Assembly (NCBI GenBank): GCA_033439295.1
Contig: JAVTLE010000021.1
Location: forward strand, 682,009 to 746,008
DNA from: Deuterostichococcus epilithicus
Lineage: Eukaryota > Chlorophyta > Trebouxiophyceae > Prasiolales > Stichococcaceae
Direction: 5' to 3'
Length of the DNA: 64,000 nt
Shown: positions 37,861 to 61,112 of the stretch, piece by piece
How the letters are laid out: each line of letters starts with the position of its first letter
Numbering within the stretch: the first letter of the stretch is position 1
Notes under the pieces: model-generated
The model's database searches: none
Seen by the model: the letters and a program-made list of their open reading frames with translations, nothing else
What the model was told of the DNA's origin: nothing
Position numbers and translations under genes: made by a program

Positions 37861-38378
37861 CGCAGGCTTTTTCATGGAAGTTCAATGCAGCTGATGTTGG
37901 GAGCCGGAGGGCGATTTCCAGCCGCAGCATGATGCAAGGAACCAAAACGGCAGCAGCGGTTGTGTTGTGACTCATTGGATTGCAATCCATATCACATACA
38001 TGTTCTATGGCGCGCGCGTTGTGACACATTGTCTCATGCAATGCTGTAGTTTCTCTTTCGGATTTGAATGCTGCAGCTTGACCTGCACCTGTGTCGTCGA
38101 AAGTTGTGCACGTTGGTGCAGTATGATGGTTTGTAGACCGAATTGCGATAGGTACTTGGTGGTGATTGGAGGCCAAGGGGAGGCCAATGTACATATGGCG
38201 TCTCGTTGTACGACCTTTACAGCCGGTGAAGCGTGGGCTTCAGTGCCTAGCCAAGCACCCTGCATGCGCAGACGCTGCATGCAAAGCTGTCCCAGCGCCC
38301 GGCTCTTCCTGCTGGCAACGCCTGCTGACCCCGCCACACCGGCTGTTCAACCTCCTCCTTCCATTCTTGAAGATGCGC
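37861..38378. other. Convergent intergenic region PNGase / RPL34
   Basis: 518 bases between facing stop codons, holding both 3' UTRs. No coding signal. Confidence 0.5.
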
Positions 38379-38655
38379 CTACGACTGGCCGCCGCGCTGC
38401 TGCAGCTTCAGCACCTTCTTGACGATCTTCTGCTCCTCGATGAGAAAGGCGCGCACGATCCTGCAGGAGTGCAGTTGGACGACTCAGATAACCAGCACCC
38501 ATGCCGCAGCGAGTGGAAACCGGGGAGGGCGCATTTCCAACCCCCGGCCAGTCACCAGGCGCCAGCCTGTCATCAGTGCAGCTCCCTCCTGGTCCGCTTG
38601 CTAGCATTCGTTCCACTTCTGGCGCACTGCTGCCATCGCTGCTGCGGGCACCACC

Positions 38656-38688
<33 letters not shown>

Positions 38689-39546
38689 GCCGAATGACGC
38701 TGGTTGCATCCCCACAGCTCCGGTTTCATGCCGCTGTTCCTGCTCGGCTGCCATCCTGCCGCCAAGGCGGTTGCGGGAGTGAGCTCGCAGACTCTCTGTC
38801 TCCCTCCGCTGTCTCGCTCCATTCCCTCCAGTTGATGCCCTGTCAGCTTGGTCATGTGATTGCGGCGGTCGTTTCAGTGTATCGTCACAGCACAAGTCGT
38901 GCTGCAGCAGCTGCTCACCTCTCCTTGACGATGGCGTGGCTGAGGTGTCCGCCGTAGATGCGGTTGACCGTCTTGTGGCGCTTGGCCAGCTTGGCCAGCT
39001 TGTTGGGGCGGTGCGCGGAAATCTGCACGTCGGCAGCATGCAGTGAGGCACTACGTGCGTGCGTCTTGACGAGCAGATGTGCGGCACTGCGCAGGCCAGT
39101 CCGCAGCGTGGAGGCGCAGGCAGGCTCGCTGCATGCGCAGCACAGATGTGAGCAGCGGCACGCTGGTCGCTCCGCCAACTCACCCCCTGCAGCCGCACGC
39201 CGGTGGCACCGCACTTGGGCGCGCTCGCGCGCTTGGTCTTGTACTGGAAGATCAGACGGCCACCTGCACCGCAGAAGCGCCGATTCGGCGAACGTTGAGA
39301 CACGGAACTTGGTACTTGTGCTCGATAGCAGATGCCAGATGTTAGACGTCCAGGGCCGCGCGAGGCGCAGCGCAGCCTGCTGCAAACTGTTGTGCAGCTG
39401 CGCCTGCAGCCGTTGCAGGCCACCCAGCAGCCTTGCGTGCTTGGGCGTGGAGCCTGCCAGAGCCTACCTGGCGTCTTGACCTTCTTGACCACATTAGAGC
39501 GAGTGGCGTACGCGTGCCTGCGGCGGTAGGTCAGCCGCTGCACCAT
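38379..39546 (-). CDS. RPL34: 60S ribosomal protein L34 (eL34)
   Basis: Structural component of the large cytosolic ribosomal subunit. Four exons on the minus strand: 39546-39468, 39263-39184, 39022-38919, 38460-38379. Phases close to 114 residues, a normal length for eL34. The protein starts MVQRLTYRRRHAYATRSN, continues VVKKVKTPGGRLIFQYKTKR and ASAPKCGATGVRLQG, then ISAHRPNKLAKLAKRHKTVN and RIYGGHLSHAIVKER, and ends in IEEQKIVKKVLKLQQ. The last intron contains a CTG/CAG microsatellite at about 38656-38688. The gene is divergent from the small TM-protein gene. Confidence 0.97.
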
Positions 39547-39920
39547 CTTGCCAAAATGTGTGGTGCACGAGCCCTGCGCCCACGAAAAGAGGGCGAACTG
39601 CACCCTGCTCGCCGCCTGAAGTGCGCATGTCACAAAACCCGCGCCGCTTGAGGTAATCTGCTTGAGCAAAACCCTGACGTAAAATTACGCCGGTACGAGT
39701 ACGCCTTGTCAGACAGGCGAGGTGATGTAATCGGCAATCGCAGGTGCAGAGGTGGCAGCGGCACGCTCCTCCGCTTTGCGCCTCTCGTGCAGCTTTGTAA
39801 GCTGAACCTCAAGTGTCCGAGCCGACCTGCACGGCGTTGCAGGTCACACGTCGCTGGTCACACGTGGGCCTGCAGCTCGGTGACTACGCCCAGCGTCGCG
39901 CCTGGTCGGCACCCACAGTC
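39547..39920. promoter_or_regulatory. Divergent region RPL34 / small membrane protein
   Basis: 374 bases between starts. The frame of the downstream small gene is open for about 100 nt upstream of its ATG behind a possible acceptor (TTGCAG at about 39841), so a 5' exon may be hidden here. Confidence 0.4.
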
Positions 39921-40866: not shown

Positions 40867-41577
40867 TCATGTTTCCATCACATCGGCCGCGTCACCATCG
40901 CCCTCCCTCTTGGCGTCCATCTCGCTCCTGAACGTCTGCTTCATGTGGGCGCACACCGCCTTGAGGCTCTTGCACGCCTCCTCTAGCGCCTCCCTCGGCG
41001 TTATGAGCCCTGCATGCGATGCTGGACTGCTCAAACTCAGTCTGTGCTTGAAGTGCAATCCGGCATGCAGCATTGACGCATGAACGTCAGGTCTGATGCG
41101 AAAATCAGCATGAGGAGGCCTTGTTGATGACCAGTTGGTGGTCAGACAGCACACACGCACCTGTCGTCTGTATCCTGAGGTTGGTCACCGGCTCTGACGG
41201 GTGCGGGATGCTGTAGCCGCAGAAAGACACATGCGGGCTGCATGGTCACAGAACCCGCACAATACTGGCCCTTCAGATCGGTTGTGAGTTTAAGCAATTT
41301 GATCTGTGAAAGCTAGGCATCAATGCCGCCAGAAGCATTTTGTGCATAATGAGCAGCTCACTTTTTGTTCAGGAAGAAGCGCAGCGCATTGGCAAGCGTG
41401 TGGTCCTCCTTCTCGAGCGCAAAGGTGGCCCCCAGCTCCTCCACCTTGTCGTTTCCTTCCTGCAGGTTGGCCTGGACTCGTCGCCAGGCGGGTTGCTGGG
41501 CGGTTTCGTGCCCGATGCCACCATGCATGCGACGGCGCATGCACGGCACTCAGCCTGCCTACCTGTCCGGTTGTCAT
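40867..41577 (-). CDS. RPC19: DNA-directed RNA polymerases I and III subunit AC19 (RPAC2)
   Basis: Small subunit shared by RNA polymerases I and III, a homologue of the bacterial alpha N-terminal domain. It pairs with AC40 during enzyme assembly in the nucleus. Four exons on the minus strand: 41577-41563, 41459-41362, 41237-41161, 41009-40867. Phases close to 110 residues. Family motifs are FALEKEDHTLANALRFFLNK, then NPHVSFCGYSIPHPSEPV and TNLRIQTTG, then a C-terminal helix EALEEACKSLKAVCAHMKQT. The first coding exon is only 15 nt (MTTGQ), followed by a canonical GTAGGC donor; it was chosen because the ATG, donor and phase all fit. Confidence 0.93.
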
Positions 41578-42035: not shown

Positions 42036-45000
42036 ATGGATGGCCAGTGCGACTGCGATGAGTGCCGCGCCAGTCGCGAGCGGGACAGCCACGCGCGCGA
42101 TCCGGCCAAGCTCAAAGACTCGTGGCTGGGCAGATCGCTGACAGGCGCCTGCTTGTCACTATGCCATGCCGGCCATGCCTGCGATGGCGCAGAGGCCAAC
42201 AGCATGCAGCTGGTGCCCGTCGCCATGCCTGGCTCGGGGCGGCGCGTGTCGCTGTCGGCGCACATCTTGCAGGTGCGCCGCAGTGCGCCTATGGGGTCAG
42301 GAAATTGGGCTCATTGCCGCCGACAGCACGGGTGCCGCCATCATGACCAACAAGCATAGCACACACGCGGCGCAAGCTGGCTCGCAGTGTAGTTTGTTTT
42401 CCAAGCTGCCATGTGCATTAGCGGAGGTCCTATGGTATGCCATGTCCCTCACAGTGACGGAACAAGTTGACCTGCAGGCTCTGGGAATGCACAAGCGCGC
42501 CGCCCCAAACCAGCTGGCGCAGCACATGGACACCACGGACGGCAAGACTCTGCGGAAGCTGGCCTCGGACCTGCGCGGCCGTGCGACTCGCAAAAAGCTG
42601 ACGTCCCTGGGTGCGCTTCGAACCGCCTCGAAATGTGCGGGTTGTCTTGGTGCCGGCTGCCGTTCACTGTGCTGCATTGCCCCACTTGCTGTGTGCGCTT
42701 CTGCAATCTCGCAGTGTTTCGACAGTTCCTCAGCAATGCTCGCAGGTGTGTGCAACGAATTAAGCCTTAGCCCTGACATGAGCGAGCGCGCCCGCCTTAG
42801 GTCCGCCATTTACGTGCAGCCTGAGCTGGCAGCGCACGTCCAGATCACTGCCCGGCATGTCAGTCACGATGAGGCCGCAGCCTCTGTCGACAGTGCTGTG
42901 CTGCTGCACGAGGTGGGCATCAACTCACCAACAATGCGACACGCCGGCACCGCAAGTTTCCGGTGTGTCGTGAGCAGGAAGGCTGGCGTCACCGGTGCGC
43001 TGCTCAACATCGTGGAGGCCGGCCCCGACTACGATGTGGACCCGGCTGCTGAGACGCCAGACGGCGACGGCAGCGATAACGAGGTGTACTCGCAGACGGA
43101 CAAGCGTTTCAGGGATGAGCTGGCTTCCGTCATCTGGATCCTGAGCGTTGCCACAAGCGGAAACCTGCTGGGTATACCCTCTGAGGCCACGCCGGGTTTC
43201 GCTCGCGCCCTCATGCAGGTGCATTCTGATCTTAGGGTTTCAGTTCCAGCTTGGTGCTGCTGCCAAATGTGCTCGCTGTAGGGTCCGCCAGCTACCGCCG
43301 GAAATTATGAGAGTTTCCGCACGAGCTGCCTTCGAGGCGCTCATGCCGTGGCAGCATGTGTTGATGGGGCCCGGCCCGAGGTGCAGCATTCGATGTGCAT
43401 CGCCAACAAGCTGGCAGGTCCTCATGCGCATTGCACAAGTCTCACGCTGGCAGCAACGCTGGTGATGCTGACTGAAGCGGCACCCGTGTGCGCCGCGCAG
43501 AAACTCTCGCTGCTGGCCCAGTACCCACGACTCGGAGCAGTTCACTCTGGCGCGTGTGTACGAAAAGGCCGGCGAGGCGTGCGGCTCGAAAGCCGACCTG
43601 GCCAAGCTGTTCCCAAGTGCGCTTTCCACCGTGCGATGGTCAGGTGCCGTGGCCTGCAGGCTTCTGGAACCATGGAACCCATGGAAATCGCTGCTACTGC
43701 TGCTGCTGCTCCAAGCGGCTGCTGCATTGGGTGTGGATGAGAGGCGTGGCGGGTGGGACTTTCAGGCGCATCATCCTCAGTGACATCTGGCAGCAAGGCA
43801 TCATCCTGGACAGAGGTCCAGCATCGTTGCATCGATGTCCGTCATCATGACGATCATCACGTATGCTTGCAGATGCCGGGGCCGACGATGACGACGTGCC
43901 GCCGCTGTCGGACAACAGCGACTACCAGGACGACTTTTCGGACATGGAAGACGAAGAGGAGACGACAGAGCCCTCGTCCGAGAGGGGGGCCCGGGTTTCG
44001 ACTTCAAACCTATGTGCGCCTCCAGGCCTCCAGGCTCCATCTCCAACTCCTGTCAGTGCATTGGCTGGCTCAGCCGCCTGTGCAGAGATGCGCCATCCTG
44101 CGACTCAAACACTGCGCAATGGATGAGATGGGCCAGGTCCGGCAGCATTGCTGCAAATGTGGACCAATCACCCCCGTGCACCCCTGCCGCAGTCTACGCG
44201 CCAGAGATCGCCAGAGAATTCGCTGCCATGACGGAGGCAGCTCGCGCGGCAGCCACGAGATATGCGGCGCCGGCGGCCAAGCCCGCGGCCAGGCCGACGC
44301 CGGCCGCCAAGAAACCCGCCAAGCCGGCGCCCAAGCCGACGCCGGCGGCAAAGCAGCCTGCAAAGCCGGCGCCAGCGGCGGCGGCCAAGCAGCAGCCGGC
44401 CAAGCCCACGAAGTCAGCAGCGGCGCAGGACGACACCTCCATGCCGGACGTGGTCACCAACAGCCTGTTCGCCATCGGCTGCACGCCGGGCGGGTCCCGC
44501 AAGGTAGGCCCTGCGGGCGACGGCCTGTGACCTGCAGGGGCACCAGCATCCCGGCATGCATGGGTGCCTCGTCTGCACCTGGCCCAGTCGAGCAGCTCAG
44601 CTCATGGGCCGTTGCCTCCTGCACTGCAGGGCACCGCACCGCACCGCGCCGCACTGCGCTGCGCTGCACTGCAACCCGCGGTCGACACTGTACCCTACAT
44701 CTCACATTTGCAGGTGGAGGCGTTCCGCAACCTGATGTCGGAGTCCGCCATCGTGCGCGACGCGGTGGACACGGTGCCGGCCAGCTACGCGCCCGAATTT
44801 GTCGAGCTGCTCGTCGGCCTCGCCTCCGATGTGCGCGCCCCGCTTGCCCCTTTGGCCCATCCCTTCCACTCCTTGGCCCATCCCTTTTCACTCCTTCCCG
44901 GCATGGCCCTTCCCGTGTCGGACTCCGCAAATGGAAGGCTTCTGGTGTCTCTGGGACGGCTGGGTCGTAGCCGGCCTGCAACCTGCAAGCCCTCAGGAGC

Positions 45001-48000
45001 GTCCAGCCCCCAAGAGCGGGAGCCAGCTGGTGCCAAACCCTGGGGCGTCGCCCCCTGCATGCGCTGCGGCACACTTGGGGACTGCTGCGCCGGGTGTCGC
45101 TGCAGCAGACTGACGCCGCATGAGACTGACCCTTCGCACCGCTGTGCCGCAGCCGCAGCACATGACGCGCAAGATGATCGAGACGACGGCGTCGGAGCAG
45201 GCGCTGGTGGCCAAGTACTGCGAGGCGCACCCTGACGGCGGCGGCCCGCTCGCGGACGGCGACACGGACCGGCCCACCTCGGCAGCCGGCCTGGTGGCCG
45301 CGGTAGGCATGGTCGGGCCCCCCGCCGGCGCGCTGAAGGGGGGGGCTCACAGCAGCGGCGGNAGCGGCGGCGGNGGCGGCGGCGGCGGGTCTGCCTCTCC
45401 TGCAGCGGCAGCGGCGGCGGGTCTGCCTCTCCTGCAGCGGCAGCGGGCGTCGCCAAGAAGGCGGGCGGCGCCAAGGCCAAGGCCAAGGGCGGCAGCAGCG
45501 GCTTCTCTTTTGGCGCGGCGCTGGGCATGAAGCCCAAGCCGGTGCCGGCGGCTGCCCCGAAGGCGACGGCGGCCGCAGAGAAGGCCAAGGCCCCGTCGCC
45601 GCTGCCGCAGCAGCAGCCGCAGCGGCAGCAGCAGCAGGGGGCGGCAAAGGGGTCAGCAGGTAGCCGACCGTCTGGCACAGGCCCCGCGCCGCAGAAGGTC
45701 ACCCGCACGGCGGCGCCGGGTGAAGAGCCGCCTGCGTTCCACAAGCAGATGGCAGGCAGCCTCGCAGCCGGCGGCAGCGCAGGCCCCTCGGCCCGGGCCT
45801 CGCCCGCTGCGCCGCCGGAGCAGCAGCCGGACAGCAAGGGCGCGAAGCGGAAGGCGGGGCGGCAGACGGTGGCAGACGGCGCAAGCTCGCAGGTGTTGGC
45901 CTCGTCGGCGGGCAGCCTGTCCTCAGGCGAGCACAGCAGCGCGTCGTTGTACACAACAAACGAGGCGCCGCATGACGCCGGGCGGCCGCAGGGCGCGGCT
46001 GCCACGGCGCAGGCTGCCGAAGAGCCGGCAACGGCCGCCGGCGCGGGGTATGCGGCAGACGCGGCGGCGGCGGAGGCGGCGGCGCAGCCAGGCGACGGCC
46101 ACGAGTCGGACGAGGACCCCTTCGCGTGGCTGGGCAGGTCCGGTGGCGAGGCGGCCTCACTGCCGCAGCTGCCGCAGGCGGCCCCTGCCGCGGCGGCGGC
46201 GCCGGTGGAGCGCCGCAGCCGGCGCCGGCACCGCGGCCCCNGCCACGCTTGGGCTCCGCGCAGGCGGCGCGCAGGGCGTTCACCACCAAGCGGACGCGGT
46301 CGCCGCGGCGCGGCATGGGCGCCGCCAAGCCCAGGCCGGCAGGCCTGCGCAACCCCTTCGAGCTGCTGGAGGATGGCGCGTCGGAGCCGGAGCCGGAGCT
46401 GGACGAGTCATCAGGCCGCGAAGACTCCGAGGAGGACGTTGCGGACGTCACGTACGCGGCGCCCACGGCGGCAGTCGCCCCGGCGGCGGCGCCGGNCGNC
46501 GGCGCCAGTGCAGCAGAAGCANTCGATGCGGCTGGACGGCGGCAGGTGCGGCGCGAGCCGTCCGGGCTCCGCCTGCAGCAGCTGGGGCGGCGTGCCCAAA
46601 GAGTTTGCGCTGCCGCCCGCGATCGACCCGTGGGCGAAGCACCGGCCCGTCGGCGGCCAGCAGGTGCCCGTCCGCCCCCTTGCAGGGAATCTTGTGCGAC
46701 GAGCGTACACCACTCAGCTCTCAGCACTGAGCGCTGCCTGCTGGGCTCCGACAGGGTGGCATCCTGGCTGCGTGGGTTCTGCAGGTGCAGGCCAGCTCGA
46801 CAGGGAGTGATCGCTCTCGTCCTGCAGCAGCGTGGCTTCATGGCCGGCCTGCCCCAACAGCACGGGCATGCTGTCAAGTGGTCACCGCACTGGCGGGCCA
46901 AGTGAAGTCGAGATGCATGTGCCCCTTTCCTGCAGACCCCGGCGGGCATCATCATGTGCCGCGTCTGCGGCTGGTCAGGTCACCCTGCGCCAGCGCTGCA
47001 CCACTTCCTGGTGCGCCTCTGTCGCTGCATTGTCTGTGCGGCTGTCCTGCGGCCGTCTCCTGCCCTATCTCGCTGCGTGCTGGGGCGGAAAGCGTTGCAA
47101 ACGCACCAACAGCCGTTGCGGCATGCACCTGAACAAAGTCCAGGGTCACAGCCATTGATCTTGCATGTCATCACTCACGATGCTGCTTTGTCATCATCTG
47201 CTTTTGTTCCTCTCGTCGCAGCTCTGCTGCCTCCACTTCTGGGGCTTTGTGACGATCGCCGTGCACCGCGCAGGGCCAGGAGCATGCGTTCATGTGCGAG
47301 GCGATGGGCACTGGCGCCTGCGCCGCCTGCGGCGTCAAGTGCCCCTCCCCCGGGCACCTCCGGGTGGGTTCCACTGCCGGCCGCTGCACTCGCTGCGAGC
47401 TCAGAGTGCAACGACTCTTTTAGGGTTTACGACTCTGTGCATCAGTGTGTCGAAACACCCGTGAAGCTGACGAGTCCAGGCTGCAGCGTGGGATGCAGCG
47501 AGCGACAGCGGCCTGTGCACATGGGACCTCTCTGCTGTTGAGGGCCCTCACATGACAACACACTTGTCATTTGTGAGGACCAACTGTCTGACAGCGTTTG
47601 CGGGCTGCGAGCAGGTGCACATGACGAGCCGCAAGCACCAGGAACGCGTCGCATGGCTGGTCGCCAGCGCCGCCGATCCGGGTACACGGCAGCCGCCGCC
47701 GCCGCCACGGCAGCCGCAGCCGCCGCCGCCACGGCAGCCGCGGCCGCAGCCGCAGCAGCAAGGGCAGCCGCAGCCGTCGCCATCGCCGCCTCCGCCGCAG
47801 CAGCTGGCGGCCGCGGCAGCGCAGCGCCCGGCCTCGCCGCAGCCGGCGGCGCCAGCGGCGGAGCCCATTGGCGAGGAGATCGCCAACAACTTCGAGTGCC
47901 CCATCACCCAGGTGGGCGCTGAGGGTTGCAGGCTCCATTCTGCGTCTCTGCAATAGAAGTTCTGAGGCGAGCTGCTCATGAGCAACCTGCTGATGCAGCA

Positions 48001-48611
48001 GCAGCAGCTAGCTCTGAAGTCCTGCCTCAGAAAGCTGGTCCTGATGCTCGCACAACAGGAAGCGATGGACAGATTGTCATGGAAAGCAAAGTACTGCTGA
48101 GGCTGACTTCAGAGCTTGTCTCACTCGACTCGCAGGATTGGATGGTAGACCCGGTGATATGTGCTGACGGATATACCTATGAGCGCTCCGCCATCGAGTC
48201 GTGGATCGCCCGCAACAAAACGTCGCCCATGACAGGTGCCGCGCCTTGCTTCGAACGTCTTCCTGCAAGCTCTCCCAGCTGACTCCTCGAGCGGTCATCG
48301 TCGGGAAATTTGATGTCGCGGCAGCCACGAAGAGCATTCTACGAGCCTGCTGCAGCCATGCGATCAGGGCTTCATGTGACAGCTTCAGACCTCCCGGCAC
48401 AATTTGCTGGCTCATGTGGTTCTGCGCGCTGGTGCCATGCCGTGCAGCAGTGCTGCTCGGCCTTCATCACATTTCGGCAGACGATGGCCATGATATGAGA
48501 CTGATGTTCCTATCCGCTGCTGCTGCAGGGCTCGACCTGACCTCCACTACCCTCACGCCCAACCGGGCCCTGCAGGGCGCAATCCGGGCCATGATGGTGA
48601 AGCAGACTTGA
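42036..48611 (+). CDS. Large U-box protein with one paired C2H2 zinc-finger module
   Basis: Probable E3 ubiquitin ligase. Exons: 42036-42272, 42478-42610, 42746-43218, 43282-43380, 43541-43643, 43873-44013, 44193-44503, 44714-44830, 45153-46663, 46936-47010, 47274-47363, 47615-47911, 48136-48235, 48529-48611. Phases close except inside 45153-46663, where a 32-bp duplication and N bases shift the frame. The product is about 1250 residues. The N-terminal 350 residues are unrecognised. Then come an acidic stretch, an Ala/Lys/Pro-rich region and the motif DEDPFAWL. A two-finger module follows: CRVCGWSGHPAPALHHFL, then CAACGVKCPSPGHLRVHMTS and RKHQERVAWL. The C-terminal U-box reads NFECPITQDWMVDPVICADG, then YTYERSAIESWI and SPMTG. 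It is a paralogue of the next gene. The start is uncertain. Confidence 0.72.
45387..45450 (+). repeat. 32-bp tandem duplication causing a frameshift in the first U-box gene
   Basis: The unit containing TCTGCCTCTCCTGCAGCGGC occurs twice, 32 bp apart. With one copy the exon reads on smoothly as SASPAAAAGVAKKAGGAKAK; with two the frame is lost. N bases lie just upstream (about 45362 and 45374), so an assembly error is plausible. The unit ends in CTCCTGCAG, so it also duplicates an acceptor-like site. Confidence 0.7.
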
Positions 48612-49780
48612 ACAAGGGATGCAAAAGGCAGGCCAGACGGCCATGCGGCTCCTGAACGCGCTGTGATCGCAGGCAGCCAGAGTCAGCGCTGCTGCCGAGG
48701 TACAGCAGCTTGGTGAAATTTGCATCCCAGTTGAACAACGACAATGCAGTCGGACCGCCCCGCGTGCGAGTGTTTCGGGCAGCCTAGGCAGTGTAGGATG
48801 CTCAGCTGTAGTGCGCAGTGTGTTTCTAGCACCCTGCTTGTGAGTGGAAGCTAGCTCCTCCGATGTGTGCCACAGGGTTTCAGTTTCGAATGTTGGGCTC
48901 CGGTTCGCATATGAATGGGAGGCCAATCTCGTGCAATCTGGCGAAGTTCACTTCCAAACTTACCTTTCGAGTTGCCCTTCCAAGGCTCATACAGTAGGCA
49001 CCTGTCTGCGCCCAATCACTTGAGCTGCCGATGCCGATTGACCCGATCGCCGTGTTTGCAGTGCTGGGCACGCTCAGGCACGCTGCCCTTCCAACCGCTA
49101 ATGCACCCAGCGCAGCAGGCTGTAAAGTGCAAGTCTATTGGGGGTCCGCAGCTTTTCGCCACTGGTGCAATCTGACAGTAACAGACGGCACTGCAAGTCT
49201 AAGTCGGGAATCCGCAACGCGGCACAGTCGGACGATAGACGCTTCAAAGACGAAAAGTGCTGCAGACAAGTGCTGCAGGTGATGGCGGAGTCTGCGCTGA
49301 AGGCCCTCACCAGGTGTGACTTCGTGTTTAGAAGATGAGGCTAATGTCAGGCACGCATCAGCGCGGCACTGTCCATACAGATCAAAACAGCAGGCTCGGG
49401 TAAACTCACTCCGCGAGGCCGACAAAGTACCGAGCAAAACCGGAGCCTTGTAGAGACGACATGATGTCTGCAGCAGGGCCGCAGCGTACCGAGTTGCATG
49501 CGTTGCATGCGCTGACTCAACACAAGAGGACATCGTGAACGACGGCAACGCTTGCGAAGACTGACTCACGCTTATGGATGGTGGGCGCCAGCAAGCTGGC
49601 AGCAACTCGGGTGCGTGAAAATGCCCGAAAAGCAGGTTCGAGGTGGTCCATTATGCCAAGCGATGTCATCTCTGCATTGCATCGTATCGCATTGCATCTC
49701 ATTACCGGCCCTGCACAACATGGCAATCCTGCTGGGAAGGTGCCCGCTGAGAGTGGACCCTTGATTTCTTCGTGCTGCAG
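48612..49780. other. Intergenic region between the two U-box genes
   Basis: About 1.2 kb between tandem paralogues. It should hold a 3' UTR, a promoter and possibly a 5'-UTR intron ending at 49780. No coding stretch stands out. Confidence 0.45.
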
Positions 49781-52700
49781 ATGCAGGCGCCTGATGGCAG
49801 CACCAGTGGCGGCACCAGCGGCAGTAGAAGCAGCATCTCCGGCGTCGACAACGATATCAGCAAACGGATCAGGTCCAGCGGCGGCGGCAGCGACAGTGGC
49901 GATGCCTTGGATTTTTTCAAGCAGCCGCCACCGCCAGGCGAAGAACTCACTGGTTTTGTGGAGATTTTGCTGGCCCACGCTGCCTCAGCGGGTCAGGCAT
50001 CAGACTCGCAGGCGCAGCAGGCGAGTTCTGCATTGCCGTTAGGCCAGTGAGGAGGCCGAGTTCGTGTTTCAGTCACTGCAACCCTGCTGCAGCACTGCCT
50101 TGTGACTGTTCACCAGACCGTAAGCCTCTGGACCACCTGACAGGACTGCGTCTGCACTCTGCACATCACGGCCATGGGCAGCACGAGTCGGCGCAAATCA
50201 GTTCTTGGTGCGGGCTGAGAGACCTGCTTCATGCCTGATGACATCAGCAGTTGTCTGCTGCGCAGATGGCTGAGCTTCTGCGGTCCGACAGCATCTTGCT
50301 GGCGGCTGCGGAATGCCCCGGGGAGATTCTCACGTGCCTTACAAACGGCATGTATGAAATCCAGGTGAGCAAAGCCAGCAACTGATGATGAAGAACATCA
50401 TCATCAATCTGCCGTAGGAATGATGCACTACCATCCATGCCACACAAGGCCTGAGGAGGCCGGGAACCTTGCGGAACCTGCAAACCAGCGCAGAATGGGT
50501 CACGGGAGGTTTTGACAGCTTGATAGTATATTTGTAGGCACGCAGAATTCTTTTAGATGGGCTCGGCAAGCCAGGTATGGCGGTGCCGCCGCCTAATCCG
50601 CTTGCAGAAACGCCGTTGGGTGCACGCTGCCTGTGCTGCTGCCTCATCGTCAGGGTGTTTGTGCTGCTGCTTGCAGAACGACCGGGGCGTCTCGGAGGAG
50701 ACGTGGCCAACGGTCCTGGAGGAATTCGTCCTCAGTATGTACGACGCTCACGCCATGCTGATGGAGTCCGACGGGCACCCACTGCTGGCGAGAAGGCAGC
50801 ACGCACTTGAGCGCAGCCATGCCGTCTCGGCAGCCGACGAAGAGGAGACGGAGGCGATGGTCAGCAGGTGCACTGGTGCGCGGCAGGCGAGATGGGCGGC
50901 CATGCCCGAGGCAGGCGAGTGACGCACTCGCTGGCTGACCTGCTCCGTGGGCGTCTGGACGTGCTGCTGCGTGCATCTTGCTCGCACTGCAGGCTGCCGA
51001 GCATGCTCGCTGGGCAGTCTATGGCAGCACAGCGAGGATGTTACAACCATCGGCACCCTCAGTACGCCATGCTGCAGCTGGCACGCGCCTGGGGGGAGTG
51101 GCGCAACCTCCCTAACTCGCCGGTTCCCGTAGGCCCCTGGCGCAGCTGTTCTGCAGCTCCGCCCGCGGTCCCGGCTCCCAGGAACCGGGAGGGTGAGCCT
51201 CACATGGGGGACTGTGTCGCCCGCAGAGCGTGCGGCGGCACTGCAGCTCGGCAGGCAGCACCTCGTCACCCTGGCTCAGTGCTGGGACTTGGGACGGCAG
51301 ACACCGCCTGGCCCGGAGCTGGGGAGCTCGCTGCTGGCCATGCTGTTCATTGAGGGCGCTCCGCTCGCAGAGTTGGTCAACCGCCTGGCAGTCCGCATGT
51401 CTGACGACTGCGTGGACATCCTGTCGTACATCTCTGCACTGATGATGCGGGTGAGTGGCGCTCCCCCAAACGCACTGGGAGCCTGCACGCTGGCGGCAAG
51501 GGCTGCGCGCGCCTGCGACCACCGCCACTGCAGCATGAGCCGCCCTAGAAGGCCCTGCTGGCATCCGAAGGCTGACCTACCTGTGTGTGTCGGAGCAATG
51601 CGTCGGGCTGCAAGCACGCATTCGTGGCTTGTCATACCCATGCATGGTGCACCTGCACGATGCGGTGCTCCCGCGCTGCTGACGACGAGGAAGCGATGTT
51701 CCATCTTCTGCCTGATGCCCTCGTCCCCACTGTCCTGGTGGTGCTCATTGCCCCGGGAAATCTGTGGCGCAGGGCATGTCTCTGCCCGTCATCACGCGTG
51801 CGGTCGAGCAGATGGTGGCCAAGCTGTTTCGCAGTGCGGACGCCGGGACCAGCGACAGTAACAGCACCGGCGGCACCGGTCAAGGCGACGCAGCTGCTGC
51901 TGCGACGCGGCTGGAGGAGCGCGCCCCTGCGCCGGCTGGACACCAGCCAGATTGCCAGGGCGCCGGCGAGGAGCAAGCGGCACAGCCGTCGGCGCCTGCG
52001 GGCTCCGCCGCCGCCACGACAGAGGCGCCGCAGCCGGAGGCAGGCGTCAGCGGCGCAGCCGCCGGCGCAGCGGACATCAGCTCTGCAGATCCGGCGCGGC
52101 AGCTGGGGCAGCCTGGCACGGCGGCAAGCGCCGGAGCGGCAGCGGCCGCGCAGAGGCGCATCGCTGCTCTGGTGGATCAGCTCAGGGCGCGGAGCGCCCA
52201 GCAGGAGGCAGTGGCCGAGCTGGTAGCATCTTTCCGGGAGTGCGCTACGGAGGTAGACAACGAGGAGGCCGCCAGGGCAGCAGACCTCATAGCTGAATCC
52301 GTGGGTTCCTTTGCTGCTGCCACGAATAGAGCACTGGATGCCTCCGAGGCGCTGGTGGACAGGGCAGCGGCGACCTTGTGGGCGGACATGTCCGCCCACA
52401 AGGTGGCGGAGCTCGAGGCGAGTCTGACTCAGCAGCTGGCGAATCAAGAGGCGACGGTTGCAGCCCACGCCACGGCGGTTGCTGCTGGCCTGGCGAACCT
52501 CGAGGCAGAGCTGTTTCCGAAGCTGGTCGAGCGTGCTGCCATGCCCGCCCTCCCCCCGCTGCCGGAAGCAGCGGCTGCACAGGCCGGCGGGGCTGCGATC
52601 GAGCGTGGCGCGTCTGCCGGGGCGCCACCGCGGCAGACGGCCAAGCAAATGTCTCAAGGGATGCTAGCGCGAATGAGGCGCATCGAGACCTCCCTGCGGC

Positions 52701-55700
52701 GGGCGAGGGGCGCTCCTGCCAGCAAACACCCGCCCGCCGCCGCAGCAGCATGCCTCCTGGCTGATGCTCCCTCGACGGGTCAGCCCTCAGGCGCAGAGGG
52801 CTCCAGCTGCTCGGCGGACGCACAGCCGGCGGCGGTGGCCGCGGCAGCTGGTGGCGGTGACATCCCCAGGCCTGGACGCGCAGCAGCAGCAGCAGCAGCG
52901 AAGGGCGCGGCAGGCTCAGCGTTAGAGCCCGCCGAGCCCGCGAAGCGGCGGCGCGACCCGGCACCCTCGGTAGGCGAGCCAGCTCAGGCCGGAGGCCGAG
53001 TTGTGGCGGGGCCGGCGCCGCATGGTGTGACTTATGACAAGAGCGGCGCGGTAATCGCAGATGCACAGGCACTGGCGGCGCCGCAGCCGCAGCCGCAGCT
53101 GCAGCCAGCAGGCGGTGCGGCAGGAGGCGATGCAGCCACTTCGCAGGCGGATGGCTCCGATTCCGAGGAGGACCCCTTCGCCTGGTTGCTGCCGGCAGAA
53201 GCGCCGGCGCCTGCCGTGCGAGTCCCCGCTGCCGCGCCGCCGGCTCCCGCCGCTGGCGCTGTGCCCGCTGCAGCAGGTGCGCCGCCCACCGCCGCGCCAT
53301 CAGCGCCAGTGGCGCACCCGAGCCGCCTTGGGCCTGACGTGCCGCCTGAGCCATGGATGCTGCCAGAGCCCCCCTCCGCGGACCCGCAGCCCACGACAGC
53401 TGCCGCCGGCGGGCCTGCAGATGAGCAACCCCCGGCTACGCAGCCGTCGGCACACCCTCAGCCGCCCGCGCAGCTGCCGCCCACGTCCCGACCCTCCGCG
53501 GGGACCCCTGCAGCACGAGCGCCAGCCAGCGCAGCCGCCCTGCTGCAGGCGGCCGCTGCCAGGCAGCCGGCNNCAGCGCNNCCGCCGGCTCAGCACCAGC
53601 CGCCGGCAGTGCCGGCAGGCACGCTGCATGCCTCTGCGGCAGCACCCGCAGCGCCAGTGCAGGCGGCTGCGACAGCCCCGCAGCCTTCGGCCGCCGCCGC
53701 TACGCCAACCTACAGGGCGGTCGGCGGGGTGCAGGTGAGCGTGAATACCTGCAAACGCTCACCAACATCATCTTGGCAATGCAAGTTTGTGGCACCACAT
53801 TGACATTGAATTCGACTTCATCAGTGCTGTGGCACCCGGCTGCTATCGCCCCGGCAAGAAGGCCGTCTTGCAGCAGCCGGACTTCCTCAAATTCAACAGT
53901 CTCAAAACCTGCAGGAGGCGGATGGCACCGTCATCTGCCGCGTGTGCGACTGGCGCGGCAAGCCGGAGCGCACGATCGAACACTTTAAGGCACGCTCACC
54001 GAGCCTCAGGCATTCCCTCAACGATGCACTTCTTCCTGTCTTTCCGCACACTACTCTGCCCCTGCTGTCACGAACACAGTGGCATACACTCCACATTCGT
54101 GCAGCAGGTATTCCTGCTAGCTTCTCGTCTGACGAAAGACCACCTCAAATGTGTTTTCCTGCCAGGGCTCGGCTCACCGCGACCGCGCGCGCGACCTGCC
54201 GCTAGTGTGTGGCCCCTGCGGCATCGTCTGCAATCACGAAGGCGTGCTGCGCGGCCACAAGGTCAACAGCACACCGCACGCCACGCGGCTCGCGTTCCTG
54301 CAGGGCGGCTCCGCCGCCGTGACGGAGCTGCTGGGGGAGGTGCTTGCGCCGCCGCCAGCGGTGGCAGCAGCAGACCGCCCGCGGCCGCGCCCGGAAGCGC
54401 AGCTGCAGCTGCCGCCGCGGCAGGCGCCTGAAGCCTGGCCGGCCGCCGCTGGCGCCCGCCGCCAGCCATCAGACGGCTGTGCGACCGAGGCACTGGTGCC
54501 CGCTGGCGCCCCATGGTCGTTCGTGGCGGCGGCGCCGGCAGCTGCAGCCGCGGCGCCTGGCCTGCCGCCTGGCGTGGAGGCTGTTGGCGGGCTTCAAGAC
54601 TGCGATGGCCTGGTTACGTGCGAGCTGTGCGACTGGCTCGGTGCCCCGGAGGAGACATTTGCCCACTTCAAGGTACTGTGTGCACTGCTATGTGCCGGAA
54701 ACACAGGGTTTGCCTGATGCCACCCATGTGGCAGCTGCTGCTGCTTGCCAGCCGGAGCCTTGGGGCTGGTGAGGCCATTGCGTGCACGGCAGGCTCAGCC
54801 GTCAGGCAGTAGTGGGCGGTGGTCGTGAGCACAGGTCGAGCTCTGCTCCCTGACAGCCTCATAGACTGTGCTGAGTACTCCAGCACCCGGTCGACATCTC
54901 CTCTGCCGGCACCGCTGTCATTGCCTCTGCGCATTGTCGTACAGGCGCCGGAGCACTATGCGAATACAGATGGCCTCAGTCGGGGGACCTGGTGCGGTTC
55001 CTGTGGGATGGGGTCTTTACCCGACGGGCTGGAAGCCCACCGGGCGACAGCGGCGCACATCTCCAGGATCGTCTGGCTGCAAGAGCGCTCCGATGCGAAG
55101 CAGCCGCGGCAGCCTACCACGGCCCCTACGGCGCCGTCGGCGGCAGCCAGCAGGGGCAGCGGCAGCGGCGGCGGAAACTTGGCGGCGGCGCCTGCGCAGC
55201 GAGACCACCCGGGATCCTGCAAGCTGTGCGCCTGGAAGGGTGACTCGGTGTTGCAGCACTTCAAGGTGCTTTATCGCTGCTGAATATCGATCTTGCTGCA
55301 GTGCGCAACTTGTCATGTGGTAAAGATTGTTCAATGCCGGCCTCCCAGTGATGAACAGGGCTCAAAGCTGCTTTGTCGGAGCTGAGATGGGGCCCTTTCC
55401 AGCGCTCTCTTGTCGAATGATAGGCAGAATCTTACACATGGCGCAGCATCGCGATCAGCTTCGCAAGGTTCTTGCGTGCTGCAGAACGACGCCGGGCACC
55501 AGCGGCGGTGCCGCGAGGCCGGCGCCTTCAGCTGCGCCGACTGCGGCGTCGTGTGCCCGGGGCCCCCACAGCTGGCGGACCACCGCGCCTGCGACAGGCA
55601 TGTTGCCAGGGCCGCGCTGCTGCGGGGCGCCGGCCACGCGGTGAAAGAGCAGGCGGCGGCGCAGCGGGCGGTGGCGGGCATGCAGCAGGCAGCGGCAGCG

Positions 55701-57050
55701 CGGCGGGCGGCCCAGGCAGCGGGACAGCCCGCCTCTGACGGCAGCCAGGCGGCGCGGCCGGCGGCGGCGCCACGGCAGGCGCCTCGCTCGGCCGCGCAGC
55801 GCGCCGGCAGCGGTGGCGGCGGCAGCTCCATGGCGCCGCAAGAAGGCGGCGGCGGCGGCGGCGGCAGCGACGGCGGCACGGCTGCCACGGCCGCAGCGTG
55901 GCAGGCTCCGGCAGAGTTCGGGCTGCCGGCCGTCGCGGCGGGCGGCGCACAGGCAGCCAATGGCAACTTGATCTGCAAGATCTGCAGCTTCGAGGGTCCG
56001 CCAGACGAGGTGGCGGCCGCCCACTTCAAGGCGAGGGCCTTGCATGCGCCCTTGAAGCTGCAGTTGCTATCCTGTCATAAAGTAATTGCAGGGTGCTGGC
56101 GAGGCGTTGGTGCTGCACCCAGGTTTCTGTTCGCTCACTGTGGGATGACGGGCGCGCTGCAGGCGGCAAGACTGCATCAATGCCGGCATCTGGACCGAGA
56201 AACGCCACTGATGCCATCCAGCCTGTGCTTCTACAGGGTAACATGCACAAGCGGGCGTGCAAGGCGCGCGGGCGCCCGGGAGCTTTCCCCTGCTGGGCGT
56301 GCGGCATCGTGTTCCCCGCCCAGTCGCACCTGCAGCGGCACCGGGTCCATCAGAAGCACCTCGACCGCCTCGTTTGGCTCTACGGGGCAAGAGACCGCGC
56401 TGCGCACAAGCGGCCAGAGGCGCCGGCGTCCGGGGTAGCCGCCGCCACCGCAGCCGCCNCCGCGGCGCCTTCCCGGCCGCGCAGCGGCCCCACNGCNCCT
56501 CCGCCNCCGCTGGCACAGCGCCCCGCGCCGCTGGCGCAGCTGCCGTGGGCGCTGCTGGCGGACGACGAGGACGAGGGCAGCAGCGATGACCAGGAGGCGG
56601 TGGCGGCGGAGGTGGCTGTCGAGCAGCCTGCGCCTGAGGCGCAGCCGCCGGCGCCGCTGCCGGCATCGCCAGACGCCGGCGCTGGGGCTGCCGCTCAGGC
56701 GCTGGCAGGCGGCGACTACGAGTGCCCCATCACTCAGGTGTGTATTAGTCAGCCGGTGCCCTGTGCAACATGCTGCACGAGCTATGTGAAGCATGCTGCA
56801 ACCAAGCTGCATCAACCTGACATGACCACACATGTCTCGATTGCAAATGCACATTTCAACACAGGATGTGATGCGTGACCCGGTCATGTGCGCCGACGGG
56901 CACACCTACGAGCGCGCCGCCATCGAGGCGTGGCTCGCTCGGAGCGACTGCTCGCCGATGACGAACGAGCTGCTGCCAAGCAAGGCACTTGTGCCAAACC
57001 TGGCACTGAGAGCAGCGATTGCGCCGGCGTTGGCGCATAGGGCCAAATAA
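49781..57050 (+). CDS. Large U-box protein with four paired C2H2 zinc-finger modules
   Basis: Probable E3 ubiquitin ligase, paralogue of the preceding gene. Exons: 49781 to about 50046 (join unresolved), 50266-50364, 50677-50867, 50993-51192, 51227-51450, 51773-53734, 53915-53989, 54166-54672, 54945-55265, 55485-56030, 56237-56737, 56865-57050. From 50266 all phases close to 1603 residues. The N-terminal third is helical and unrecognised. A 654-residue exon has coiled-coil-like stretches (AQRRIAALVDQLRARSAQQE) and the shared motif EEDPFAWL. Four modules follow, each C-x2-C-x-[WF]-x-G ... HFK, intron, then C-x2-C-G ... H-x(5)-H: CRVCDWRG/CGPCGIVC, CELCDWLG/CGSCGMGS, CKLCAWKG/CADCGVVC, CKICSFEG/CWACGIVF. 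The C-terminal U-box reads YECPITQDVMRDPVMCADGH, then TYERAAIEAWLARSDCSPMT. Confidence 0.78.
53915..56460 (+). repeat. Four exon-encoded zinc-finger modules in tandem
   Basis: Half-modules CxxCx[WF]xG...HFK lie at the 3' ends of exons 53915-53989, 54166-54672, 54945-55265 and 55485-56030. The matching half CxxCG...H....H lies at the 5' start of the next exon each time. The intron always falls right after HFK in phase 0. Each unit is therefore one exon long and symmetric in phase, which allows frame-neutral duplication. Confidence 0.85.
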
Positions 57051-58385: not shown

Positions 58386-61112
58386 CTAGGTATTCAGGTC
58401 CGTCAAATCGGTGTACAGCCCTGTCACCTTTTGGGTGGCGCGGCCAATGCTTAAGAGGACGGGCTCCGCCAGGCGTCGGCTGTGCAGCACACGGAAAGCC
58501 CAAGGAGCAAGGCGGTAGGCCAGCCGGAAGACGCCCATAGCAGCGTGACTAGCAGCCTCAGAGCCCAGGTAGTTGCCAGCGTAGGATGATGCGGCAATGC
58601 TGTCGACTACCAGGTCGAATTCTGGCAGTTCGATTGCTGCCAGGTGCGTGCTGCAACGAAAATCAGCCGTACGGAAGTGATGTTTGGAACATGTCTGTAA
58701 GGAAATTCTGGCTGTGAGAAATGAGGGCATTTGCTCACCGCGCATGGTCATTGGGCTGACGATCCCAGCGCCGCTCACCAGGCCCACGCCCGTCACCAAT
58801 TCCAAGACAACAGCGCCATTGTCAGCAGATGCGCGCCAGACGTAGCTGCCAATCGTAACAGAGCCAGCGGGGAGGGCAGTGCGATCCTGAAACGCGGTCG
58901 TGTTGGACGCTGCAGTGTAGGCCATGTGGTCCGCTGTCATAAGCACCTGCGGTTGCAGCAGCGCCAATCTGGGCAAGTATGAGCCGCATAGCGTCTCCAC
59001 AGAGACGACAGCAGATGGGTGATCGCGCCAAGTTGTTGCATTTGGCAATTTAAATCGGGGGTGTGACAATGTGTGTACCTGTGCGCCGGAGGCCGTGGCA
59101 ATGTGCACGAAGTTGTGGGTGCCTGTAGTCCGGAAGTGGGCAAAGACATACATAGGCGACCAGCTTAGGGAGCCATCGCTCTCGACCACCTGCAGATGCT
59201 CAACGCTGCCTGAAATCAGTACATCAGCAGCCTTCAGAATACCATTGATGCCTCTGGAGGGCCCGCTTCATCATTTGAGTGTTGAGTTGCCGTCAAGTAA
59301 AGTCTTCGGCAGTCAGCAGCAGGAAAACAGTAATATTGCTCGTGCATGTCCCACTTGCCTGAACCAGGTCGCCGATGTTTACGTCAGCCAAGGCCTTGTG
59401 GGACATGACGCCAGAGGGGTTCTTCACAAGCGCTTGTGCATCGGCTGGGAAGCATGCCGCCCCATCGGCAGCTGCACTTGTATGTGACAAGTGCTGTCAG
59501 ATAACAACCCGAAGGTTGACATGCCGCAGTCGTCACCACCATTGCCTGGTGTGTGCAGCATCACAGGCAGCAGGGAAAGAGGCGTTGCGACCCACACACC
59601 ACAGACGCTTGTGTCAGTTGGGCACTGGCCGACGCTGCAGGTTGTGCCATCTATAAAGGTGAAGCTCGGACATGAGCTGGTCGCGCCGGTTGGCGGGCAC
59701 CTATTGCCACCGGTTGCGGGATTGCTGTCGCATGCAGGATTACAAGGGTCGCCCTGTCTAACTGAGCCTGGCGGCGGACAGCCTGCAGCGCGCACCGAGA
59801 ACGAGTCAATTGATCCTGCACAACCGTTGCGAATTACAGTGCTTGTGGATGCCATGTCGATGAAATGCAGCCATGACTGTATGAAAGTGCGTGGCTGCTT
59901 GAACTGGCGGCTGGGACTGGCGGTCGCCTCCCCCTGCTCCTTCTTCCCATTTTCAGCAGGTCCGTCTTGGAGTTTGTGATGTGGTGAGGTGTGTCAATCT
60001 GCCGCAGAGCCGAGCTTAGTGTCGAGCAGGTTGTGAGTGTTTGGCGGGATGTCAGAACGGTTCAGTCCGATCAGCCAAGACGAGACTTGCCACTAGTAGG
60101 GGCAGTCGGCGTGGGGGCAGTCGGCGTGGGGGCACTCGGCGTTGGGGTGCTCGGNGTGGGGGTACTTGGCGCGGGGGTAGGTGCTGCAGGAGCCGCTGCG
60201 GGGGCTGGAGTCGAGCTGGTGGTCGGCATCACGGCGGGAACTGCCGTAGGAATGGCACTGGGCATTGCAGAAGGGGCGATGGTGCCTGCGGAACTGCAGC
60301 CGGCGCCGTTTGCAGTGGCGGCGCTGGAGGCGCCATTGCCAGCGGTCGAACACGCAGAGGCGCCACCGCCTGCGCAATATCCGTTTGTGTAAGTTTGATC
60401 TTTCGCAAGCGTATTGCTGGGGATGATGCCGAGATGTCGCTAGCTGCATGCAAGACTACTTATGCAGTCGGTAATAGAAACATGGTGATCAACACGGTCT
60501 GACTTGGTATACAGTGAAAGGGCTTCCACATTCAGCTTCCACATTTACAGCAGGACAGGTTGCAGTTTCACGAACAGACCTCCGGTGCTAGAAATGGCAG
60601 CAGAATTGCCAGCGCCACTGCCGGCGGCTGCGCCGCTGGTCCCTGCGGCAGCTGCGGCCGCAGCTGCCTCGTCAGTGGCGGCTGCTGAGGCGGCGGCGGA
60701 TTGGGAGGCAGCAGCAGCGGCAGCAGTAGCAGCAGCAGGGTCCGGACCCGCAACCATTTGCTGGAACCCGGAGGAGGCTGCGCTGCCGCTAGACGAGATG
60801 GATTGTGTTAAGTGGCGGCGGTGAGTAGCTGCGAATGAAAGTTCGTGGGCAGGTTCAAGATGATTTCGCCTTTTCGCCTTATGTCTCGTAGGGTAGGGCA
60901 ACGAAGCGTACTACAACAACAAGGCACGGCCGTGCACAAACGAGGGGCTGCTTATTAGCGATGTGCCGCGATGCAACGAGCCAAACCGCTGAAGATCCTT
61001 GAATGCCGTGCATCGTGGATGAACACGCACCTGACGAAGACGGACAAGCTGCGGCCTGGCATGTCAAAATGCACAGCGCACACAGTAGCAGGTGCCGCCG
61101 ACGGCAAGCCAT
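58386..61112 (-). CDS. Secreted Hint (Hedgehog/intein) domain protein
   Basis: Predicted secreted or cell-surface protein with a self-processing Hint domain. Six exons on the minus strand: 61112-61031, 60828-60580, 60369-60087, 59841-59600, 59471-59359, 59189-58386. Phases close to 590 residues (one N near 60154). A signal peptide is clear: MACRRRHLLLCALCILTCQAAA. Next come an Ala/Ser-rich stretch, a Cys/Gly-rich piece, a Pro/Thr/Ser linker (PTPTAPTPTAPTSG) and a Cys-rich segment (GCPPPGSVRQGDPCNPACDS ... CPPTG). The Hint domain starts at AACFPADAQALV, with Cys-Phe at the expected splice/cleavage site as in Hedgehog CF. It continues NIGDLVQVVESDGSLSWSPM, YVFAHFR and LLQPQVLMTADHMAYTA (T-x-x-H motif). 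The intron at 59358 has a GC donor. The residues following 58740 could hide one more intron. Confidence 0.82.

Follow-up and report, generated by a model that had tools for sequence, protein, structure and literature searches.

Two neighbouring U-box genes of a green alga that appear to carry arrays of paired C2H2-like fingers

A 64,000-nucleotide stretch of the genome of the green alga Deuterostichococcus epilithicus (positions 682009-746008 of contig JAVTLE010000021.1; the stretch is termed here the window and the contig C18) contains two neighbouring forward-strand genes, each of which ends in a U-box and appears to carry, upstream of it, a module of two C2H2-like zinc fingers; the module occurs once in gene 1 (mapped exons 46936-48611) and four times in gene 2 (mapped exons 53915-57050). 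The classification of U-box ligases follows the partner domain, which is thought to set their targets. The interpretation favored here, with a probability of about 0.6, is that these genes encode U-box E3 ligases in which an array of paired C2H2 fingers serves as the partner, and that they belong to a lineage-restricted family subject to birth-and-death turnover. Comparison of sequences leaves the architecture well supported; the class of target is a guess by analogy. U-box genes with a finger array would constitute a new arrangement of known parts and, if the interpretation is true, would give the U-box family an additional mode of recruitment. Since a single genome contains one-, two- and four-module forms together with damaged copies, it could be tested directly whether the number of modules is linked to the choice of target.

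C18 is one of 21 contigs in a 46.8 Mb genome; measured every 2 kb, the GC (guanine plus cytosine) content of the window ranges over 56-71%, and the genes are rich in introns. That both genes end in a U-box, at the place and on the strand given by the initial annotation, is confirmed by the PF04564 model, which scores 61.7 bits on the joined exons of gene 1 and 58.8 bits on those of gene 2 (cut-off 21.4). Solved U-boxes match that of gene 1 at E values down to 2e-13. The gene 1 product runs from finger 1 through finger 2 and a Pro/Gln/Ala-rich linker to a U-box that reaches the stop, with all exons joining in frame between GT donors and AG acceptors. In gene 2 every join is in phase 0, and exons 2-4 of the mapped list share one plan: each begins with the last His of a finger 1, continues with finger 2 and a linker, and closes with ligands 1 to 3 of the following finger 1. 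The mapped exons fix no 5' end for either gene, and nothing that was found backs 42036, where the initial annotation had set the upstream limit.

The module was characterized by aligning eight readable copies from four loci, namely genes 1 and 2 and two further loci on C18 (loci 3 and 4, described below); these copies were picked after motif and protein searches, and the second module of locus 4, which is damaged, did not enter the alignment. The Cys and His ligands, four per finger (C, C, H, H), are invariant in all eight modules, accompanied by a Gly that follows the fourth Cys and by a Leu of the last helix, at module identities of 24-39%. The finger-1 pattern occurs five times in the window, always within genes 1 and 2, versus a mean of 0.02 and a maximum of 1 over 100 first-order Markov resamples; the finger-2 pattern occurs four times, all in gene 2 (finger 2 of gene 1 is split by an intron and hence lies outside this count), versus a resample mean of 0.07 and at most 1. 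A profile built from the four gene 2 modules, the columns of which came from the eight-module alignment and thus involve a slight leak, scores 67 bits on the gene 1 module, 62.6 and 39.2 bits on those of locus 3 and 42.3 bits on locus 4, versus at most 16.6 bits on 1000 shuffled sequences. The module counts of one and four that had been proposed for the two genes hold.

The assignment of the module to C2H2 fingers stands in respect of its ligands, with a correction: the two fingers have the look of divergent members of the C2H2 class, finger 2 being zf-met-like. The zf-met model (PF12874, cut-off 21.2) gives 23.4 bits for the gene 1 module alone and 20.9 bits within a longer chain; it does not match the gene 2 chain at E up to 1, and when E values up to 10 are allowed it matches five of the eight modules. 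Finger 2 resembles zf-met/U1/JAZ-type fingers in its C-x2-C-x(11-12)-H-x(4-6)-H spacing and in the helix that follows the second His; the module departs from them in that finger 1 falls below every Pfam cut-off and contains a phase-0 intron. A known domain model covering the architecture, which would have spoken against its novelty, was looked for: no Pfam model above cut-off spans the two-finger unit with its intron inside finger 1, and NCBIfam yielded nothing useful. The structure search proposed for the joined module was made with finger 2 modelled alone (AlphaFold predicted local distance difference test, pLDDT, 79; two short strands and a broken helix), and Foldseek returned a list of weak matches in which several DNA- and RNA-binding fingers rank above those of NDP52 (E 3.4) and TAX1BP1 (E 4.8), and resemblance to UBZ-type fingers in fold or sequence is confined to such weak matches among many C2H2 fingers. 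The only solved protein matched by the finger-1 profile is the RNA-binding protein ZFa (E 0.079).

The module is indeed split by introns, as had been claimed. Translation continued across the introns of gene 2 modules 2 and 3 runs into stops, and in the remaining three window modules the two fingers sit in different frames; joining the fingers therefore requires splicing. In all five window modules the last His of finger 1 comes directly after a phase-0 AG acceptor; joins read by eye show the same for the two modules of locus 3 and for module A of locus 4. Downstream, a single open exon in each gene (47615-47911 in gene 1, 56237-56737 in gene 2) spans finger 2, the linker and CPITQ, so that fingers and U-box start share an exon. 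This genome has 30 U-box matches above the PF04564 cut-off. Of 30 U-box loci examined, 26 have an AG immediately before the [DE]VM codon, where the join is expected (the others being locus 4, L031, L036 and L039), and 14 have CPI[TS]x followed by GT upstream; an intron after CPITQ is thus general in the expanded U-box family, and this lends credibility to the joins of genes 1 and 2. In sum, the phase-0 introns, the invariant Cys and His ligands and a short motif common to both genes, EDPFAWL, support the exon joins proposed here and the paralogy of the two genes.

There is good evidence that genes 1 and 2 arose by tandem duplication, as the initial annotation had claimed, because they have in common EDPFAWL, a VGGxQ exon end followed by a phase-0 intron before module 1 (at 46663 and 53734), and introns at HF[KL] and at CPITQ. 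Its further claim, that local duplication was followed by amplification of the module, is weakly supported at best. In its favor, finger 1 of gene 2 module 1 shares 58% identity with its counterpart in module 2 and 48% with the one in gene 1, and the module tree pairs gene 2 modules 1 and 2 (82/88; the other best inner support is 86/84), though this tree has no starred fork and carries a long-branch warning; the likeness of these two fingers hints at one duplication within gene 2. Against it, identities over the whole module are no higher within gene 2 (30-37%) than between genes (24-39%), and otherwise the modules are too diverged for gains and losses to be ordered. The VGGxQ intron is absent before modules 2-4 of gene 2, a pattern that fits either their gain or their loss from gene 1; loss also fits because other C18 loci hold two modules (locus 3 has two, and locus 4 two, one of them damaged).

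Further copies occur on the same contig. The tandem series includes a third U-box copy, located outside the window (C18:750419-750619; 4.4 kb beyond its end and 11 kb beyond gene 2). Its score is 28.4 bits, and it contains an in-frame TAG, retaining CPI and the C-terminal part of the domain but not its middle. Upstream of it, PWLLPGEA resembles the AWLLPAEA of gene 2, and no module was found nearby. Locus 3 (C18:784.0-786.4 kb), 45 kb away, has two modules and a third finger, which, once joined across an intron by hand, matches zf-met at 23.2 bits (cut-off 21.2); the roughly 9 kb fetched downstream contained no U-box. Locus 4 (minus strand, C18:1363.4-1368.5 kb), about 625 kb away, has one readable and one damaged module followed by CPITQ and a U-box, the first part of which lacks the DPV core and the AG at the expected join; a further C2H2-like finger there is matched by no Pfam model at E up to 1. 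The surroundings of locus 3 include reverse-transcriptase-like frames and repeats downstream, and a partial family B DNA polymerase (PF00136, 72.5 bits; L042 6500-6790, locus 3 itself spanning L042 8956-10000 and L043 1-1400) possibly derived from a virus-like or self-synthesising element.

Across the genome, at least 40 places resemble the gene 2 U-box exon at E up to 10 among the best candidates scored. Modules stand upstream of the U-box in at least three of 34 U-box places (gene 1, gene 2 and locus 4), these places being L010-L039, L001, L002, L006 and one in L009, read mostly over 1.5 kb upstream. A U-box tree of 23 rows, from which 7 of the 30 loci were dropped as short or stop-bearing, puts L021, L027 and L032 near the window genes (85/87; no fork starred); as module-bearing relatives these were rejected, their 5.7-6.7 kb upstream containing no module, and so was the U-box locus at C18:1333469 (6 kb). 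Whole-genome searches with the module exons gave only weak matches off C18, the best being finger-2-like (C19:3336383-3336496, minus strand, E 0.0095); others lie at C12:593940, C9:633860, C10:60897 and C12:2872814 (E 0.02 to 0.28) and C4:966603 (E 1.0), and a match at C9:2289459 (E 0.033) was discarded, having single C2H2 patterns only. As far as tested, the family appears confined to C18.

Beyond this genome, no relative of the module was found among 5.8 billion proteins by searches that require shared 5-residue words. One such search, in which the best 7999 word-sharing candidates were scored, gave nine matches; since these cover only 25-30% of the query and all have a U-box among their Pfam domains, it hardly tested the module. 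The other module searches, with 6 and 214 candidates, gave none at E up to 10, and no title among the open-licence PMC papers listed concerns a U-box with C2H2 fingers. The arrangement was thus not met in the literature and proteins searched, in which algal genomes are only partly covered. Plant U-box (PUB) ligases share the same U-box core, with solved relatives that include U-box domain-containing protein 12 and CHIP, but differ in their partners; the window genes have a finger array as partner and a C-terminal U-box. In the parts of the window genes that were scanned (their 5' exons being incompletely mapped) no ARM, WD40, TPR, kinase, UFD2 or cyclophilin partner was found. The main text of a review of PUBs groups them by ARM, CYC4, GKL, UFD2, WD40, TPR-like and kinase partners, contains neither 'zinc finger' nor 'C2H2', and puts the number of U-box genes in Chlamydomonas at 30, with the family markedly expanded in green plants and algae (PMC8875423).

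Mechanistically, C2H2 finger pairs on Ala/Pro-rich linkers would replace the usual partner domain. A U-box recruits E2 without zinc, and that of the window genes is predicted to recruit E2~ubiquitin; the fingers, on flexible linkers, may bind RNA, an RNA-protein particle or a protein target, with the number of modules perhaps tuning avidity. That the array acts as target receptor is suggested by analogy with ZNF598/Hel2, which likewise combines a ligase domain and several C2H2 fingers in one chain, albeit with an N-terminal RING rather than a C-terminal U-box, the likeness being one of architecture; the RING of ZNF598 is required for ribosome quality control (PMC5504347). The upstream frame of gene 2 (51716-53734), which by eye appears rich in coiled coil, could add self-association. 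An N-terminal piece of gene 2 has no Pfam match, and a genome search revealed no second copy of it (one other match, E 1.45). A tandem neighbor and a distant copy with damaged U-boxes, and one copy for which no U-box was found, would reflect birth-and-death turnover of the family. We think it rather unlikely, as a more specific proposal, that these are lineage-specific RNA-guided or ribonucleoprotein-directed ligases in which paired RNA-binding fingers multiply, the U-box modifies the cargo of the bound RNA, and birth and death are fast, as in defence or surveillance genes.

Several observations weigh against the favored interpretation, and some of them serve its alternatives. The exon joins of both genes are comparative, and two introns of gene 2 require GC donors (after 53989 and after 56030). 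Were the fusion an artifact of joining by eye, finger and U-box exons would belong to separate adjacent genes, as the comparative nature of the joins and the modules of locus 3, with no U-box found in the roughly 9 kb fetched downstream, might suggest; however, the single open exon from finger 2 to CPITQ in both genes and the recurrence of modules upstream of a U-box at locus 4, even though its U-box join is damaged, render this very improbable. N bases, moreover, interrupt the frame upstream of the gene 1 module. Together with the broken U-box of the third tandem copy and the damage to the second module and U-box front of locus 4, this could indicate a family of decaying pseudogenes or half-dead copies lacking function, but all mapped window exons are open, and retention of every zinc ligand at 24-39% identity is hard to square with neutral drift; decay therefore seems improbable.

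Finally, the finger-2 profile matches mostly DNA-binding proteins, which fits poorly with both RNA binding and its main competitor, namely that the fingers are UBZ-like or adaptor fingers that bind ubiquitin or a protein partner rather than RNA, the array picking ubiquitinated or other proteins. The presence of NDP52 and TAX1BP1 among the weak Foldseek matches speaks for this, and EDPFAWL could be a protein contact; yet NDP52 and TAX1BP1 rank under several fingers that bind DNA or RNA, zf-met is the Pfam family that fits best, and ZFa, the one solved match to finger 1, binds RNA. Binding of ubiquitin or a protein partner in place of RNA is possible but less likely, and a U-box ligase with an array of C2H2 finger pairs as its receptor is retained as the preferred interpretation.

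Table 1. Features of genes 1 and 2, in window coordinates.
Feature	Position	Strand	Basis or remark
Gene 1 short linear motif EDPFAWL	46112..46132	+	letter-for-letter as in gene 2; frame downstream broken by N bases
Gene 1 exon end ahead of module, PVGGQQ, then phase-0 intron	46646..46663	+	position matches gene 2
Gene 1 module finger 1 to first zinc His (CRVC...HHFL)	46936..47010	+	exon joining, eight-module alignment
Gene 1 module: finger 1 second His (GQEH), finger 2 Cys pair	47274..47363	+	exon joining, alignment
Gene 1 module: finger 2 His pair, then helix (VHMTSRKHQERVAWLVA); exon continues to 47911	47615..47665	+	exon joining, alignment
Gene 1 U-box start (CPITQ), phase-0 intron next	47897..47911	+	exon joining, Pfam, genome-wide U-box intron survey
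Gene 1 U-box exon 2 (DWMVDPVICADGYTYERSAIESW...)	48136..48235	+	Pfam, solved-structure matches
Gene 1 U-box end, C terminus, stop	48529..48611	+	exon joining
Gene 2 short linear motif EDPFAWL	53168..53188	+	motif shared with gene 1
Gene 2 exon end ahead of module 1, AVGGVQ, then phase-0 intron	53717..53734	+	comparison with gene 1
Gene 2 module 1 finger 1 to HFK, GC donor	53915..53989	+	exon joining, alignment
Gene 2 exon: module 1 finger 2, linker, module 2 finger 1	54166..54672	+	exon joining, alignment
Gene 2 exon: module 2 finger 2, linker, module 3 finger 1	54945..55265	+	exon joining, alignment
Gene 2 exon: module 3 finger 2, linker, module 4 finger 1, GC donor	55485..56030	+	exon joining, alignment
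Gene 2 exon: module 4 finger 2, linker with acidic stretch, U-box start (CPITQ)	56237..56737	+	exon joining, alignment
Gene 2 U-box exon 2 and stop	56865..57050	+	Pfam, genome search with exon

Other features of the window, all on the minus strand, are a Hint module beside gene 2 (PF01079, 48 bits; 58386-59264), an exon of ribosomal protein L34e (PF01199, 51.5 bits; 38347-39681) and an exon resembling the Rpb3/Rpb11 dimerisation domain, which scores below cut-off (24.2 versus 27 bits; 41358-41549).
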